Assembly: GCA_024227975.1 (NCBI GenBank)
Contig: JAAETV010000140.1
Location: 1-38,918 of the forward strand
DNA: 38,918 nucleotides
Source: Actinomycetes bacterium
GTDB taxonomy: Bacteria > Actinomycetota > Acidimicrobiia > Acidimicrobiales > SZUA-35
Direction: 5' to 3'
Shown here piece by piece: positions 4,587 through 9,949 of this stretch. A program made the translations under genes and the position numbers. The notes beneath the pieces are model-generated. The model searched no databases, had not been told where the DNA came from, and was given only the letters and a program-made list of their open reading frames with translations. Each line of letters starts with the position of its first letter. The first letter of the stretch is position 1.

Positions 4587-7366
4587 CCTTTGTCGCCGTC
4601 GTCGTCCTTGGCCTCTTGATGCCTTTCGTCATCTTCGATCTCGTTGCCCGACCGACCATCCGCCGCCTGGCCATCCGCAATGTCGTGCGCCGGCCTGGGG
4701 AGGCCGCCCTCGTGGTCGGTGGTTCCCTGCTGGCCACCGCCCTCATCACAGCATCATTCATCATCGGAGACAGCTTCGGCAGCTCTATCCGAGGGCTCGC
4801 CGTCGATCGCTGGGGCCCCACCGACGAGTTGATCCTGATCCCAGATCTCGACCAGGTGCCAGAGGCTGTCGAACAGGTCCGGTCCCTCTCCCCGGAGCTG
4901 ATCGATGGGGCCCTCGGGGTCTCCTGGCTCGACGTCGCCGTCGCTTCAACCGGGTCTGACCGCCGGGTCGAACCCGAGGTCACCCTGCTCGAACTCGATC
5001 CGCGCGAAGCCATTGAATACACGGCCGATCCTGCGGTGGTCGGGGCCGATTCGGCTGGTTCCCTCCGACCCGACGAGATCGTCATCAATCAGCGGATCGC
5101 CGATGAGCTCGGCGTCGAGGCCGGCGAGGAGGTCGACGTCTTCATAGGTGGTTCCCCTGTCAGCTTCCAGGTGGCAGCCGTCAGGCCGGCCACCGGGCTC
5201 AACGGGCTCGCTCAGGCCATCGTCACCCCAGGCGCGGTAACCGATCACTTCGACGACCCGTCCTCGGTAGTGACCCCGGCCGTCCTGATCTCCAACACCG
5301 GCGATGTCTTCAGCGGCGCCGATCGTTCCGCTGAAGCTGTGGCCGCCATCGAAGCCAAGCTCGGTGACAACAGCCAGGTCATCCCGGTCAAACAGGACCT
5401 GCTGGACGACGCCAAAGCGGAGGGAGCCGAGATGCGAGAGCTATTCGGCACCGTCGGCGGGTTCAGCGTGGCGGCCGGGATCCTGCTCATGATCAACCTC
5501 TTTGTCATGTTGGCCGGTGAGCGGACTTCGGAAATGGGAGTCCTGAGGGCCACCGGGCTACGTCGTGGGCATCTGGTCCGGGCCTTCTCGATGGAAGGGG
5601 CAGCGTACGGGGTGATGGCCAGCGCGCTCGGGATTGGCGTTGGGATCGGTGTGGCGGCTGTTGTCATGCGCATGGCGAGCGGCTTGTTCGAAGGTGAGTT
5701 CACGATCAGGTTGGACATCGTCGCCACCAGCCTCCTGTCCGGTGCCGTCATCGGGCTCATGGTGTCACAACTGACCGTATTGCTCACGACCTGGCGGGTG
5801 ACGAGGCTCAACATCGTCCGGGCTATTCGTGAGCTCCCCGAACCCCGGGGAGCTGGCGGTTCCCGTCGGCGATTGGCCTTCGGTCTGGTTGGCGTGATCG
5901 CTGGCGTCGGCCTGTACCTGGCCACCGGAACTACCCCGACTGTCGCCATCTTCGCTCCAGTGGTCGCCCTGATCTCATCGGTTCCCCTCCTCGAACGGCT
6001 GATCGCTCGCAAGGTCGCAGTCATCGCAACCTCAGGGCTGGCCCTGGCCTGGGTCGCCACCGTGTTCGGGCTTTTGCCCGACGTCATGGCCGACCCCGAC
6101 ATCTCCCTCTTCCTCATTCAAGGTGTGCTTCTTGTCGGCCTGGCCACCATCATCGTCGCCAATCTCGACAAGGTTTGGCTGGGGCTGGCCCAGGTTGTCT
6201 CGCGCGGTGGCATTGCCGTTCGAATGGGGATGGCAGAACCGCTGGCCCGGCCGGTGCGGAGCGCCCTCCTGGTGGCCATGTACTCACTGGTCATCTTCAC
6301 CGTGACCTTCATGGCGGTGATGAACGCAGTGTTCCAGGCCCAGGCCCCCGACTTCGCCGTCCAGGCCGGGGGCGGCTATGACCTCTACCTCGATGCCAAT
6401 GCCAGCAGCGGTCTGACCGCGACCGACCTGACCGCCCGAGGCGATGTCGACACTGTGGCACCAGTGCTCCGAGGCCACATTCTCGGCCGCTCGGATGAGG
6501 CCGACGACACTCTGGCCGGTTGGCGGACGAGCGGGATCGATGAAACCTTCCTCACTGTCGATCCCCCTGTCCTCGACGGCCGGATCGAGCACTTCGCCAC
6601 TGACGCCGAGGCATGGGCCGAAGTGGCAGCCGGAGGTCCCTACGTCATCGTCGACAGTGACGTCGGACTGGAGCCGGGCGACAGCTACCAGTTCCAGGGC
6701 GAGGGTGGGAGCTTCACCACGTTCACCATTGCCGGTACAACCGAGCAGGGCTGGCTCGTCGGTGCGGGAGCGGTGATGGGCCAAGCCCGAGTGGCTGAAC
6801 TGATGGCCGATGGTCGGCTCCCGACCCGGTTCTACCTCACCGTCCCTTCCTCAGCCGATCCCGATGTCGTCGCCGCCCAGCTGACTGACAGCGGAGCCGA
6901 GCGCGGTATCGACGCCCGCACCTTCCTGGCCGCGGCCAAGGCAGAGACCGATGCCCAGCAGGGATTCCTGTACCTTCTCCAGGCCTACCTCGGGCTCGGG
7001 CTGCTCATCGGGATCGCTGGCCTCGGCGTAGTGCTGGCGAGAGCGGTTCGTGAACGCCGCCGTCAGTTCGGGGTCATGAGGGCTCTGGGTATCGCCGCCC
7101 CCGTGATCCGTCGGGCTTTCGTGGTCGAGGCTTCCTTCGTGGCCGTTCAGGGTGTGGTGCTGGGGATTGGGCTGGGTCTGCTCAGTTCCTGGCAGGTCTT
7201 GACCCGGTCGTCGGCCTTCGAGGACGGGCTGGGCTTCACCGTTCCCGCTCAGATCCTGATCGGGCTCGCGCTGGCCTGCCTGGCTGCATCACTATTGATG
7301 ACGTCGGTCCCCGCCATCAGGGCCGGCCGGACTACCCCGGCAGTCGCCCTACGGATGACGACCTGA
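4583..7366 (+). CDS. ABC transporter permease with two FtsX domains
   Basis: This 927-residue inner-membrane protein starts in an ATGA overlap with the ATPase gene. Two FtsX-like units are visible. Unit one has an N-terminal helix, a MacB_PCD-like extracytoplasmic domain (about 70-280) and three helices containing the coupling motif GERTSEMGVLRATGL. A central block of helices (about 430-590) follows, then a second extracytoplasmic domain and a C-terminal unit with RERRRQFGVMRALGI. The architecture matches large actinobacterial permeases that pair with MacB/LolD-type ATPases and work mechanically on extracytoplasmic substrates rather than by classical import. The substrate is unknown. The last 18 bp overlap the convergent gene on the minus strand. 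Confidence 0.9.
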   Translation: MTFVAVVVLGLLMPFVIFDLVARPTIRRLAIRNVVRRPGEAALVVGGSLLATALITASFIIGDSFGSSIRGLAVDRWGPTDELILIPDLDQVPEAVEQVRSLSPELIDGALGVSWLDVAVASTGSDRRVEPEVTLLELDPREAIEYTADPAVVGADSAGSLRPDEIVINQRIADELGVEAGEEVDVFIGGSPVSFQVAAVRPATGLNGLAQAIVTPGAVTDHFDDPSSVVTPAVLISNTGDVFSGADRSAEAVAAIEAKLGDNSQVIPVKQDLLDDAKAEGAEMRELFGTVGGFSVAAGILLMINLFVMLAGERTSEMGVLRATGLRRGHLVRAFSMEGAAYGVMASALGIGVGIGVAAVVMRMASGLFEGEFTIRLDIVATSLLSGAVIGLMVSQLTVLLTTWRVTRLNIVRAIRELPEPRGAGGSRRRLAFGLVGVIAGVGLYLATGTTPTVAIFAPVVALISSVPLLERLIARKVAVIATSGLALAWVATVFGLLPDVMADPDISLFLIQGVLLVGLATIIVANLDKVWLGLAQVVSRGGIAVRMGMAEPLARPVRSALLVAMYSLVIFTVTFMAVMNAVFQAQAPDFAVQAGGGYDLYLDANASSGLTATDLTARGDVDTVAPVLRGHILGRSDEADDTLAGWRTSGIDETFLTVDPPVLDGRIEHFATDAEAWAEVAAGGPYVIVDSDVGLEPGDSYQFQGEGGSFTTFTIAGTTEQGWLVGAGAVMGQARVAELMADGRLPTRFYLTVPSSADPDVVAAQLTDSGAERGIDARTFLAAAKAETDAQQGFLYLLQAYLGLGLLIGIAGLGVVLARAVRERRRQFGVMRALGIAAPVIRRAFVVEASFVAVQGVVLGIGLGLLSSWQVLTRSSAFEDGLGFTVPAQILIGLALACLAASLLMTSVPAIRAGRTTPAVALRMTT

Positions 7367-8374
7367 GCTGAGGAGATGCATCCAGCGCTCGTCACGCTGG
7401 CCTAGTTGGCGCTCTAACCGGGTGACGTGACCGGCGGTAGCGAGAGTACCAAGCGCCTCTTCGACAGCCTCGACGTGGCCGAAGTCGTGCATCCGCTCGG
7501 TCCGGTCTCTCAGCTCCCGGGCCGTCTGGAGTCCCCGCAGCATCAACACGGCCAGGAGGGCTACGTCGGGCTCTTCGAGGCCGAGGTACTCGTCGAGTAC
7601 ATGGCGGTACTTGGTCACCCCTCGCCCACTGCGGGGATGGACGAAACGGACCAGCTTGCGTTCCTTGCCCTCGGTCAGGATGTCGAGCACGTCCCGCTCA
7701 CTCAGATCGGTGACGGGATCGCGGCTGGTCGCCTGATTGCAAGCGGCAACGAGGGCGTTCAACGAGAGGGGGTAGTTCTGCGGGGTGGACAGACCCTTCT
7801 CGATCAGAGCCCCGATGACCCGGCTCTCGACGAAGCTCAGAAGATTCTGGGCAACAGCAGCCGAGCCGCCACCGGTCTGGGATCCATCCCCCTCTGCCCC
7901 CTTTGAGCAGGTCGGTCCGGCTTCGTCGGCCCCGTCGGTGGCCATGCCGTCACTGGGGCCGGTCCCAGAAACGTGCTCGGTCCAGGATCCGGAACGGATG
8001 GGGGTGAGCTGACCGAGCCCGAATCCGTACTGGTAGGCCCAAGCCATTCGGCCACTGTCGGTTTCTATCACGACACGGTGGTAGAGCCCGGTCCCGGCCC
8101 CCTCGATCTCATCGAGCATGTCGAGGCAATCGTCGAGCACCTCTGGGTCGATCGTCATCCGCAGTCCGTGGATGCGGTCAGGGATGGTGCCGGTCCCGTC
8201 GAAACGAGCGGCCGGGTAGCCCACACCACCATCGAAGAGGCGCCCTCGGGTCGTGTCCGACTCGAGGGCGGTGATGAAGTCCTCGAGGAGTGGCCACCGG
8301 TCCTCACCCGGGATCAGGGTGCCGTAGATGAAGAGTTGGTCGAGCGTCACGTCGGTGGAGACTAGCCCAGCCAT
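7349..8374 (-). CDS. Gamma-glutamylcyclotransferase-like / DUF480 (YceH) fusion protein
   Basis: The 341-residue protein joins two families. Residues about 12-135 are a GGCT/AIG2-like fold with the signature YGTL (17-20) and the acidic LDEIEG...YHR motif (about 87-100) expected to carry the catalytic Glu. A Gly/Ser/Asp-rich linker (about 145-172) leads into a DUF480/YceH winged-helix domain (about 175-335), recognisable from ALIEKGLSTPQNYPLS, ACNQATSRDPV, LRGLQTARELRDR and ERWMHLL. YceH-like proteins are of uncertain function; GGCT-like enzymes cleave gamma-glutamyl amine bonds. The frame extends upstream to 8653, but that part is Cys/Pro-rich, unlike either family, and overlaps the next gene, so I start at ATG 8374. 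No clear Shine-Dalgarno is visible. Confidence 0.85.
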   Translation of the reverse strand: MAGLVSTDVTLDQLFIYGTLIPGEDRWPLLEDFITALESDTTRGRLFDGGVGYPAARFDGTGTIPDRIHGLRMTIDPEVLDDCLDMLDEIEGAGTGLYHRVVIETDSGRMAWAYQYGFGLGQLTPIRSGSWTEHVSGTGPSDGMATDGADEAGPTCSKGAEGDGSQTGGGSAAVAQNLLSFVESRVIGALIEKGLSTPQNYPLSLNALVAACNQATSRDPVTDLSERDVLDILTEGKERKLVRFVHPRSGRGVTKYRHVLDEYLGLEEPDVALLAVLMLRGLQTARELRDRTERMHDFGHVEAVEEALGTLATAGHVTRLERQLGQRDERWMHLLSSGRHP

Positions 8375-8394
8375 CAGGTGGTGGTCGTCGCCAG

Positions 8395-8877
8395 TCAAGT
8401 GGTCCAGAGCCAACCAAGATGTTCCCACGGTGGCCGCCGCGGATCTTGGCCCCAGCCAAGCCGAACTAGCCAGGGGGCAAGTCGCTGAGCAGGAGGGGTT
8501 GGGAGCGGTTGTTGGTTCTGCCTTGCAGCGGCAATCCAAGCACGGCAACGAGCAGCAAAGAGCCGGATCCGCCGAATCGTCGAGGTTGGTGCCTGGTGAA
8601 AGCGGTACACACCCCTCCTCAGACGGATCACCCGCCCCCGAGCCACCTCCCACCGCAAGGCATCGGAGATCACCTTCGATGGGCGTCCTCCAAGGTTGAA
8701 TCCGTATTCGGCCATCGTCGTGACCATGTCACCAACCGTCATTGTCTGATGTTGCCGAAGTTCATCAGTCAGAACGAATCGAAGGCTCCGGCCCCGCAAG
8801 GGAAGATCGGCATCATCGATCGTGACTAGTCCGTCCTCAAGCCGAAGAGGGTGGTGGTTGTGGTTCGATGCGTCCAT
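8395..8877 (-). CDS. Small winged-helix-like protein, unknown function
   Basis: The 160-residue protein has a helix-turn-helix-like core at about residues 45-95 (MTVGDMVTTMAEYGFNL, then RPSKVISDALRWEVARGRV and RRGVYRF), the pattern of a small winged-helix DNA-binding domain. The C-terminal 65 residues are Arg-, Pro- and Trp-rich and look disordered. No Shine-Dalgarno precedes the ATG. On the minus strand TAGTGT ends 6 nt before it, so the gene looks leaderless, and a palindrome covers that -10. It is divergent from the MerB-like selenoprotein gene and could regulate it or itself; this is inference from position. Family assignment is uncertain. Confidence 0.65.
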   Translation of the reverse strand: MDASNHNHHPLRLEDGLVTIDDADLPLRGRSLRFVLTDELRQHQTMTVGDMVTTMAEYGFNLGGRPSKVISDALRWEVARGRVIRLRRGVYRFHQAPTSTIRRIRLFAARCRAWIAAARQNQQPLPTPPAQRLAPWLVRLGWGQDPRRPPWEHLGWLWTT

Positions 8878-9190: not shown

Positions 9191-9949
9191 ATGAAAGCTG
9201 TCCATCCGGAACCGACTACAAGCCAAATCCGTCCTCAGCCGGCCGATGGGTCGATGCCTGTGGCATCGTTGAGCATGACCGAACAACTCGACCGGGCCTA
9301 CGCCTCGATCATGTCGACCATGATCGATACCGGACAAGCCCCCCACTTCACCGAACTGGCATCCGAGCTCGGCGTGACGATCGAGGCCGGCCGGGAGCTG
9401 GTCCACGAGCTCATGACCATCACCCCCGGTTGGACTCACCCTGGCACCGACTATGTCGCCTCGTTTCCCCCGTTCAACAACCAGCCGACCCAGTACCGGA
9501 TCTCGGTCGACGGGCGACAATCATGGTTCGGGCAATGAGGCTTCGAGTCGCTGGCCGTGCGCTGGCTCTTTCCTGGCTCCCTCATCCGCGTCGATGCTCC
9601 CTGCCTCGACTGTGGTGAACCCCTCGTCATCGAAATGCGCGACGAGGAGATCCTGACCACCGAGCCAGCCGAGATGGTCGGCTACACGAGCTCAGAGGTC
9701 GGAGGTGAGGCGTCGACCAGACCGTTCCGGTGAGCGAGCATGAACCTCTTCCGGTCGGAAGAGCACGCTCGCAACTGGTCTAATTTCAATCCGGCGATGG
9801 GGCGGATGCTGAAACCGGTATCCGAATGGGCCGACATCTTCGCCAACCCCTTCTTCCGCAATCGGATCCGACCCGACTACATCTCCTGGACTCGGAGCGA
9901 GGAAGGCCAAGCAGCCTTTGGCCAACTCCGCTCTGCCCTCAGCCCCTGA
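9191..9949 (+). CDS. MerB-like organomercurial lyase-family selenoprotein with two in-frame UGA codons
   Basis: One frame of 252 codons is interrupted only by TGA at 9536-9538 (codon 116) and 9731-9733 (codon 181). Reading both as selenocysteine gives a continuous MerB-family protein. An N-terminal helical domain (about 29-75) and beta region are followed by WFGQ-U-GFESL, aligning with MerB's AWC96ALD99; then CLDCGEP, aligning with the Cys117 region; EEILTTEPAEM matching MerB's SEIQAVEPAGM; and U-ASMNLFRSEEHARNW, aligning with C159-C160-HVHFF. Both stops therefore sit at the catalytic cysteines (65 codons apart; 63 in MerB), and Glu119 stands where MerB has Asp99. Both UGA codons have downstream hairpins, the second a strong SECIS. 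MerB cleaves carbon-mercury bonds; the substrate here is unknown. Start is uncertain: ATGs at 9191, 9254 and 9275, none with a good Shine-Dalgarno; the conserved region starts near 9275. Selenocysteine machinery is not in the window. A pseudogene with two nonsense mutations is the alternative. The MerB comparison is from memory. Confidence 0.8.
9545..9568 (+). promoter_or_regulatory. Candidate SECIS hairpin after the first UGA
   Basis: Starting 7 nt after the UGA, GAGTCGC (9545-9551) pairs with GC-GGCTC (9561-9568, U9563 bulged) with one G-U pair. This encloses a 9-nt loop, UGGCCGUGC, whose second and third bases are GG. The first loop G is the 15th base after UGA, slightly closer than typical bacterial SECIS elements. 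It is weaker than the second element. Confidence 0.45.
9734..9772 (+). promoter_or_regulatory. Bacterial SECIS element after the second UGA
   Basis: Immediately after the UGA at 9731, GCGAGC (9734-9739) pairs perfectly with GCTCGC (9767-9772). A 6/3-nt internal loop follows, then a 7-bp perfect inner stem CTCTTCC/GGAAGAG (9746-9752 with 9757-9763) capped by the tetraloop GGUC (9753-9756). The loop guanines are the 20th and 21st bases after UGA, inside the known spacing for SelB-dependent recoding. The GGUC loop matches the SelB-binding loop I recall from E. coli fdhF. This is strong independent support for selenocysteine insertion. Confidence 0.8.

Follow-up and report, generated by a model that had tools for sequence, protein, structure and literature searches.

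We analyzed contig JAAETV010000140.1 (38,918 nucleotides, assembly GCA_024227975.1) of an Actinomycetes bacterium in the order Acidimicrobiales, hereafter the window, whose forward strand carries a predicted MerB-family gene with two in-frame UGA codons at the positions of the MerB catalytic cysteines. Both UGAs are predicted to encode selenocysteine (Sec). A first-pass annotation had described one 252-codon frame broken only by TGA codons 116 and 181, and reading of the frame bore this out, as these two codons are the only stops within it (Table 1). GC content at third codon positions was even over the three segments delimited by the UGAs (0.82, 0.80, and 0.76). The gene start is uncertain because many homologs begin near window codon 22–29, and either of the two later starts in Table 1 is as plausible as the first. 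Neither a tRNA gene nor an Rfam family over cut-off was found in scans of the window.

The sequence on either side of the UGAs had been described as intact and MerB-like, and the Pfam MerB model (PF03243) matched read-through residues 96–210, spanning both codons, with 61.8 bits (gathering cut-off 27 bits). Alignments to MerB2 and MerB with phmmer put codons 116 and 181 on the catalytic Cys pair, as had been proposed, and Glu119 on the catalytic acid. By established MerB residue numbers we take the aligned pair to be Cys96 and Cys159 and the acid to be Asp99. The Cys138-x-x-Cys141 motif lies between the two UGAs, and the MerB Cys aligned with Cys138 is presumably Cys117 by the same numbering. 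According to a published survey, MerB cannot do without Cys96, Asp99, and Cys159 (PMC8261052). The MerB fold was retained over nearly the whole length, with MerB as the nearest solved fold. Among the 80 best related loci (L001–L080), the Asp99 column held Glu in 78/79 readable loci and Asp in L072. At L014 (10352–10363), a double-UGA locus, D-x-x-T replaces C-x-x-C, and the motif therefore may not be essential.

Table 1 Coordinates of the predicted double-Sec gene, its features, and neighboring genes in the window.
Feature	Position	Strand	Basis or remarks
Predicted double-Sec MerB-like gene	9191–9949	+	252 codons plus final TGA; true start maybe 9254 or 9275
UGA codon 116, predicted Sec, MerB Cys96 column	9536–9538	+	Frame reading, alignment, homolog columns
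Glu119 codon, MerB Asp99 column	9545–9547	+	Alignment, homolog columns
SECIS-like hairpin 1	9550–9566	+	6 bp stem, loop CGTGC, codon 116 to loop 17 nt; suggestive only
Cys138-x-x-Cys141 motif	9602–9613	+	Cys138 aligned with a MerB Cys
UGA codon 181, predicted Sec, MerB Cys159 column	9731–9733	+	Frame reading, alignment, homolog columns
SECIS-like hairpin 2	9746–9763	+	7 bp stem, loop GGTC, codon 181 to loop 19 nt
Outer stem of hairpin 2	9734–9772 (9734–9739 with 9767–9772)	+	Complete in window, in 11/80 relatives only
Indolepyruvate ferredoxin oxidoreductase-family gene, 1163 aa	9979–13470	-	NCBIfam; adjoins double-UGA gene
ORF with weak AbiEi_4 match below cut-off	8395–8877	-	Overlaps DUF480/GGACT ORF 7349–8653

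A protein search found 357 homologs, of which 120 were listed. Most of the listed proteins (109/120) were 152–183 aa long, had Cys at column 116, and ended just before column 181 with RPFR (103), RAFR (3), RPWR (2), or RPLR (1). Some of these short homologs carry the NCBI name “organomercurial lyase”, so the family is already public, but in shortened form. Eight listed homologs had W at both columns, as gene calling under code 4 would render UGA. These were JGI gene calls (P0002, P0003, P0009, P0027, P0071, P0083, P0086, and P0100), apparently made under code 4 because the contigs were short. Three others (P0004, P0013, and P0050) had Cys at both columns; the case for Cys at column 181 within the family consists of these three protein records and is unproven at the DNA level.

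Scanning of genome contigs found 128 relatives, and the best 80, a few near-copies among them, were kept as L001–L080. Column 181 was TGA in 80/80. Column 116 was TGA in 40, TGC in 33, TGT in six, and unread in L050, where the stretch is missing; the 40:39 ratio of UGA to Cys is biased because one of the two search patterns required a Cys or Trp codon. Among 296 genomes in the class of G001, 32 had profile matches, mostly weak ones; nine further strong loci came from this search, six with UGA at both columns and three with Cys and UGA. In that class a divergent group (L081–L086) had UGA at both columns, and one genome, G175, held two copies (L081 and L084). Among 192 genomes in the class of G025, 14 matched, and 11 did so strongly: ten had TGA at both columns, two of which duplicate L055 and L063, and one was cut off with a single TGA, at column 116 (L100). 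Over all distinct loci excluding the window, column 181 was UGA in 97/97 loci that reach it, and column 116 was UGA in 55 and Cys in 42 of the 97 read there (L050 out, L100 in). Neither TAA nor TAG was found at column 181 in any locus read. A distant locus, L101, had TGC at both columns. Viral contigs gave 17 pattern matches and no true relatives.

The gene occurs in several environmental phyla. UGA occupied both columns in 54 other distinct loci from several phyla, in keeping with the first-pass argument that two chance nonsense mutations at exactly these positions would be improbable. The comparison with orthologs that it had suggested returned Cys or UGA at exactly both columns, and none of the loci read had stops at other positions, which it had named as a possible refutation.

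Coding continued past both UGAs. In 81 frames (the 80 loci plus the window, with L077 beginning at a contig end and L050 lacking the column-116 stretch), stops were found at the two UGA columns only, from about 90 codons upstream of column 116 to the final stop. Downstream of column 181 these frames ran on for 56–217 codons to a final TGA (44), TAG (26), or TAA (11) and shared the motif U-x-x-MNLFRSEEHARxW or close variants. Median ratios of nonsynonymous to synonymous change (pN/pS) in gapped alignments of 13 chosen pairs were 0.30 before codon 116, 0.25 between the UGAs, and 0.37 after codon 181, with a highest value of 0.58. On a tree of 89 rows, nine of them database proteins with column state inferred from W or C, column 116 changed between UGA and Cys about ten times, at least eight of these on well-supported branches. 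The window grouped with L042, L001, and L014, all Acidimicrobiia-type metagenome-assembled genomes. Eleven Cys+UGA Acidimicrobiia-type loci (L015, L016, L019–L022, L025, L027, and L029–L031) extended 217 codons past column 181; their extra C-terminal part of ~145 residues had no Pfam match (L016 tested), and they had C-x-x-G in place of C-x-x-C.

Each UGA is followed by a hairpin resembling a selenocysteine insertion sequence (SECIS). Bacterial SECIS elements have loops of 3–14 nt with a G within the first two loop bases, 16–37 nt from the UGA, and these limits were applied. In hairpin 2, after codon 181, 97.8% of cells in the stem pair over 77 distinct rows (L049, which holds an N, was excluded), and pairing fell to 41–58% when the partner strand was slid by 1–3 columns. 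Two-sided changes were found in 3/7 pairs (CG to UA, GC, or AU). Three such pairs were reached in 33/500 shuffles, and the number of such cells or the covariation score in 0/500. The stretch after codon 181 was also more stable than synonymous resampling, with mean z of -2.4 in loci with UGA at column 116, -1.5 in those with Cys, and -5.6 in the window, and folding z was near 0 for stretches 15–60 codons away. Its geometry and covariation make hairpin 2 a well-supported candidate SECIS.

Hairpin 1, after codon 116, is a suggestive candidate. Its full stem was present in 40/41 UGA loci vs 15/39 Cys loci (Fisher 3e-9), and this held for actinobacterial loci, grouped by hand from names (8/8 vs 11/30), and for the others (32/33 vs 4/9). 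A hairpin-specific score of -5 kcal/mol or lower was reached after column 116 in 39/41 UGA and 13/38 Cys loci, while folding z over the whole stretch did not separate the two sets (-0.33 vs -0.13, p = 0.56).

Sec machinery, MerA, and HgcA were searched for in the host genomes of 50 of the 80 loci and in 14 control genomes. SelB was over cut-off in 48/50 hosts and 2/14 controls, the other two hosts having fragments, one at a contig end. SelA was over cut-off in 48/50 hosts, with a contig-edge fragment in one of the remaining two, and in 1/14 controls. For tRNA-Sec the counts were 44/50 hosts (43 above 60 bits) and 5/14 controls. The window’s tree neighbors G001, G006, and G015 have all three. 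Sec use is widespread in these classes, with tRNA-Sec over cut-off in 216/296 genomes in the class of G001 (some maybe cross-matches to tRNA-Ser) and SelA in 188/192 in the class of G025, so the machinery lends weak support; it is needed, but not decisive.

These results favor a gene for a double-Sec MerB-family selenoprotein predicted to cleave metal–carbon bonds as MerB does, a reading to which we assign a probability of roughly 0.68. Its double-Sec part, already put forward in the first-pass annotation, draws on the alignment columns, their conservation, a well-supported hairpin 2, a suggestive hairpin 1, and SelA, SelB, and tRNA-Sec in most of the relatives’ genomes searched; the organometal chemistry is inferred from homology, and methylmercury is a first guess at the substrate. 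Mercury is bound far more tightly by selenium than by sulfur, and Asp99 of MerB also serves the first proton transfer. In the window protein, SelB would read both UGAs as Sec by means of the two hairpins, and the selenolates of Sec116 and Sec181 would coordinate the metal of methylmercury or another organometal. Glu119, in place of Asp99, would donate a proton to the carbon with release of the hydrocarbon, and the metal would stay on both selenolates until removed by cellular thiols, leaving the host to dispose of it. Computations on MerB have Asp99 shuttling protons while thiols strip Hg from its cysteine pair (PMC4525700).

HgcA, the corrinoid protein of mercury methylation, was over cut-off in 8/50 hosts and 0/14 controls. 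All eight hosts carry the double-UGA gene (G016, G018, G020, G021, G025, G026, G027, and G029), and the two also co-occurred in the class sample of G025. There, HgcA was found in 10/11 genomes with the gene vs 67/181 without (77/192 overall; Fisher p = 5e-4, kinship uncorrected), or 9/10 (p = 0.001) when the center genome was left out; genomes with weak MerB-like matches (G395, G404, and G492) or sub-cut-off HgcA fragments (G438, G471, and G524) were scored as negatives. With SelA nearly universal in the class, the link is not accounted for by Sec use. The HgcA and double-UGA genes were non-adjacent in the ten genomes. According to the survey, none of its MerB-only genomes encode HgcAB (PMC8261052).

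Several observations weigh against the proposed lyase or its link to mercury. The canonical MerB acid, Asp99, is replaced by Glu119. In hairpin 2, the changes at two of its three compensatory pairs fall in a single small clade. Hairpin 1 shows no covariation or compensatory change, and in the window it was not above synonymous resampling (z -0.46); the helix compared between UGA and Cys loci was itself derived from UGA loci, and the whole stretch after column 116 was less stable in UGA loci (-12.2 kcal/mol) than in Cys loci (-14.6 kcal/mol; p = 0.01). Of seven independent pairs on the tree, 2.6 were for a link between hairpin 1 and UGA, none against, and 4.4 level (p = 0.25). No Acidimicrobiia-type host in the set of 50 had HgcA over cut-off, so the mercury link depends on other lineages; against the class background, its presence in 8/12 similar hosts within the 50 gave p = 0.13. 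The association was sought after a first hit with kinship uncorrected, and is therefore only a lead. MerA was over cut-off in only 6/50 hosts, a low frequency that is not unusual, because merA was absent from 906/1795 merB genomes, about half, in the survey (PMC8261052). As the first-pass annotation had noted of companion genes, no mer or sao match was among the NCBIfam matches listed for ten window ORFs; the sao models were run on these ORFs rather than on every neighbor of the relatives. Clustering of as many as six flanking ORFs per side for the 80 loci and the window revealed no neighbor family common across lineages (the ORF calling was crude, and weak clusters may be missed). Among the 77 nearest neighbors of double-UGA loci, the Pfam families listed (25/128) each occurred in three at most. 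The gene looks free-standing. Relatives of the adjoining indolepyruvate ferredoxin oxidoreductase-family gene lie near the MerB-like gene in L006, L008, and L066, possibly by chance.

Public annotation implies that UGA181 (and UGA116) terminate translation, which would make the product a short protein or the gene a pseudogene, and gene callers do stop there in the 109 short homologs. We consider this very improbable in view of purifying selection in the 13 pairs, the motif conserved past the stop in 81 frames, a column that is never TAA or TAG, and the covarying hairpin 2. Translation of UGA as Trp or another amino acid (code 4 or 25), as in the eight JGI calls with W, is scarcely credible: 18/25 window ORFs of at least 200 aa end in TGA and together contain 177 TGG codons, MerB has Cys at both columns, as do 42 loci at column 116, and most hosts searched have SelA, SelB, and tRNA-Sec.

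The choice among chemistries is less one-sided. A double-Sec lyase acting on organotin, organolead, organoarsenic, organoselenium, or an unknown natural organometal, as proposed for SaoL, would fit the absence of mer companions among the neighbor matches listed, the few hosts with MerA, Glu in place of Asp99, and the fact that the known Sec relative is SaoL (PMC13188914). With MerB as the nearest solved fold and HgcA co-occurring in one class, we regard a non-mercury substrate as rather unlikely, though a serious contender. A protein that binds or hands over metal tightly through two selenolates, with no lyase activity, appears improbable: no activity is known for the double-UGA family and the C-terminal part is variable, with 217 residues beyond column 181 in 11 loci, but the MerB fold is kept and the catalytic acid position holds Glu or Asp wherever read.

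If the double-Sec lyase is real, an enzyme with selenolates as both metal ligands would show how Sec alters carbon–metal cleavage and product release. The survey required Cys96, Asp99, and Cys159 (PMC8261052), residues absent from the double-UGA family, and would likely miss it; because gene calling also shortens the gene, methylmercury-degrading potential may be undercounted. It is possible, and we hold it tentatively, that these proteins are widespread, overlooked methylmercury demethylases with two Sec, often in anaerobic hgcA+ methylators, such that a single cell may both form and degrade methylmercury without a classical mer operon. The HgcA link gives a testable claim on methylmercury turnover in sulfate-reducing lineages.

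Among known systems, MerB (PF03243; PDB 3f0o, 3f2f, 1s6l; MerB2 5c17) shares with the window protein its fold, the order of the two catalytic positions and their similar spacing (65 residues here vs 63 in MerB), an acid three residues after the first, and a conserved Cys between them. Unlike MerB, the window gene has UGA (predicted Sec) at the Cys96 and Cys159 columns and Glu for Asp99, so that the residues used in the survey’s screen for canonical MerB (PMC8261052) are not those of the window protein; it also has C-x-x-C at 138/141, ~20–25 C-terminal residues that do not align with MerB crystal chains, and no mer companion gene seen with it. By NCBIfam cut-offs the window protein is neither MerB (NF009710, 33.8 bits, cut-off 193; NF033555, 28 bits, cut-off 200) nor SaoL (NF040728).

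SaoL, the MerB-like organometallic lyase of the SAO system, had been named in the first-pass annotation as a Sec-linked relative. It is indeed a MerB-like Sec protein, the only MerB entry in the available part of a 2026 inventory of prokaryotic selenoproteins (PMC13188914), but it is not the window protein, which scored 33.9 bits where the SaoL model requires 140. The two share the MerB family, predicted Sec, and a proposed organometal role. SaoL differs in having one Sec, in a CU motif, vs two predicted here (PMC13188914), and sao-type companions were not seen beside the window gene among the matches listed for the ten window ORFs; it is a relative distinct from the window protein. MbdU (NF045648) and the metal-binding UxxU family NF041115 likewise have two Sec and proposed metal binding but belong to other families with other motifs, as set apart by the table descriptions in the available part of the inventory rather than by sequence (PMC13188914). 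A literature search found no description of a double-Sec MerB, though its coverage was incomplete and absence in print is not established. The window protein is best placed within the MerB superfamily as a predicted double-Sec branch.
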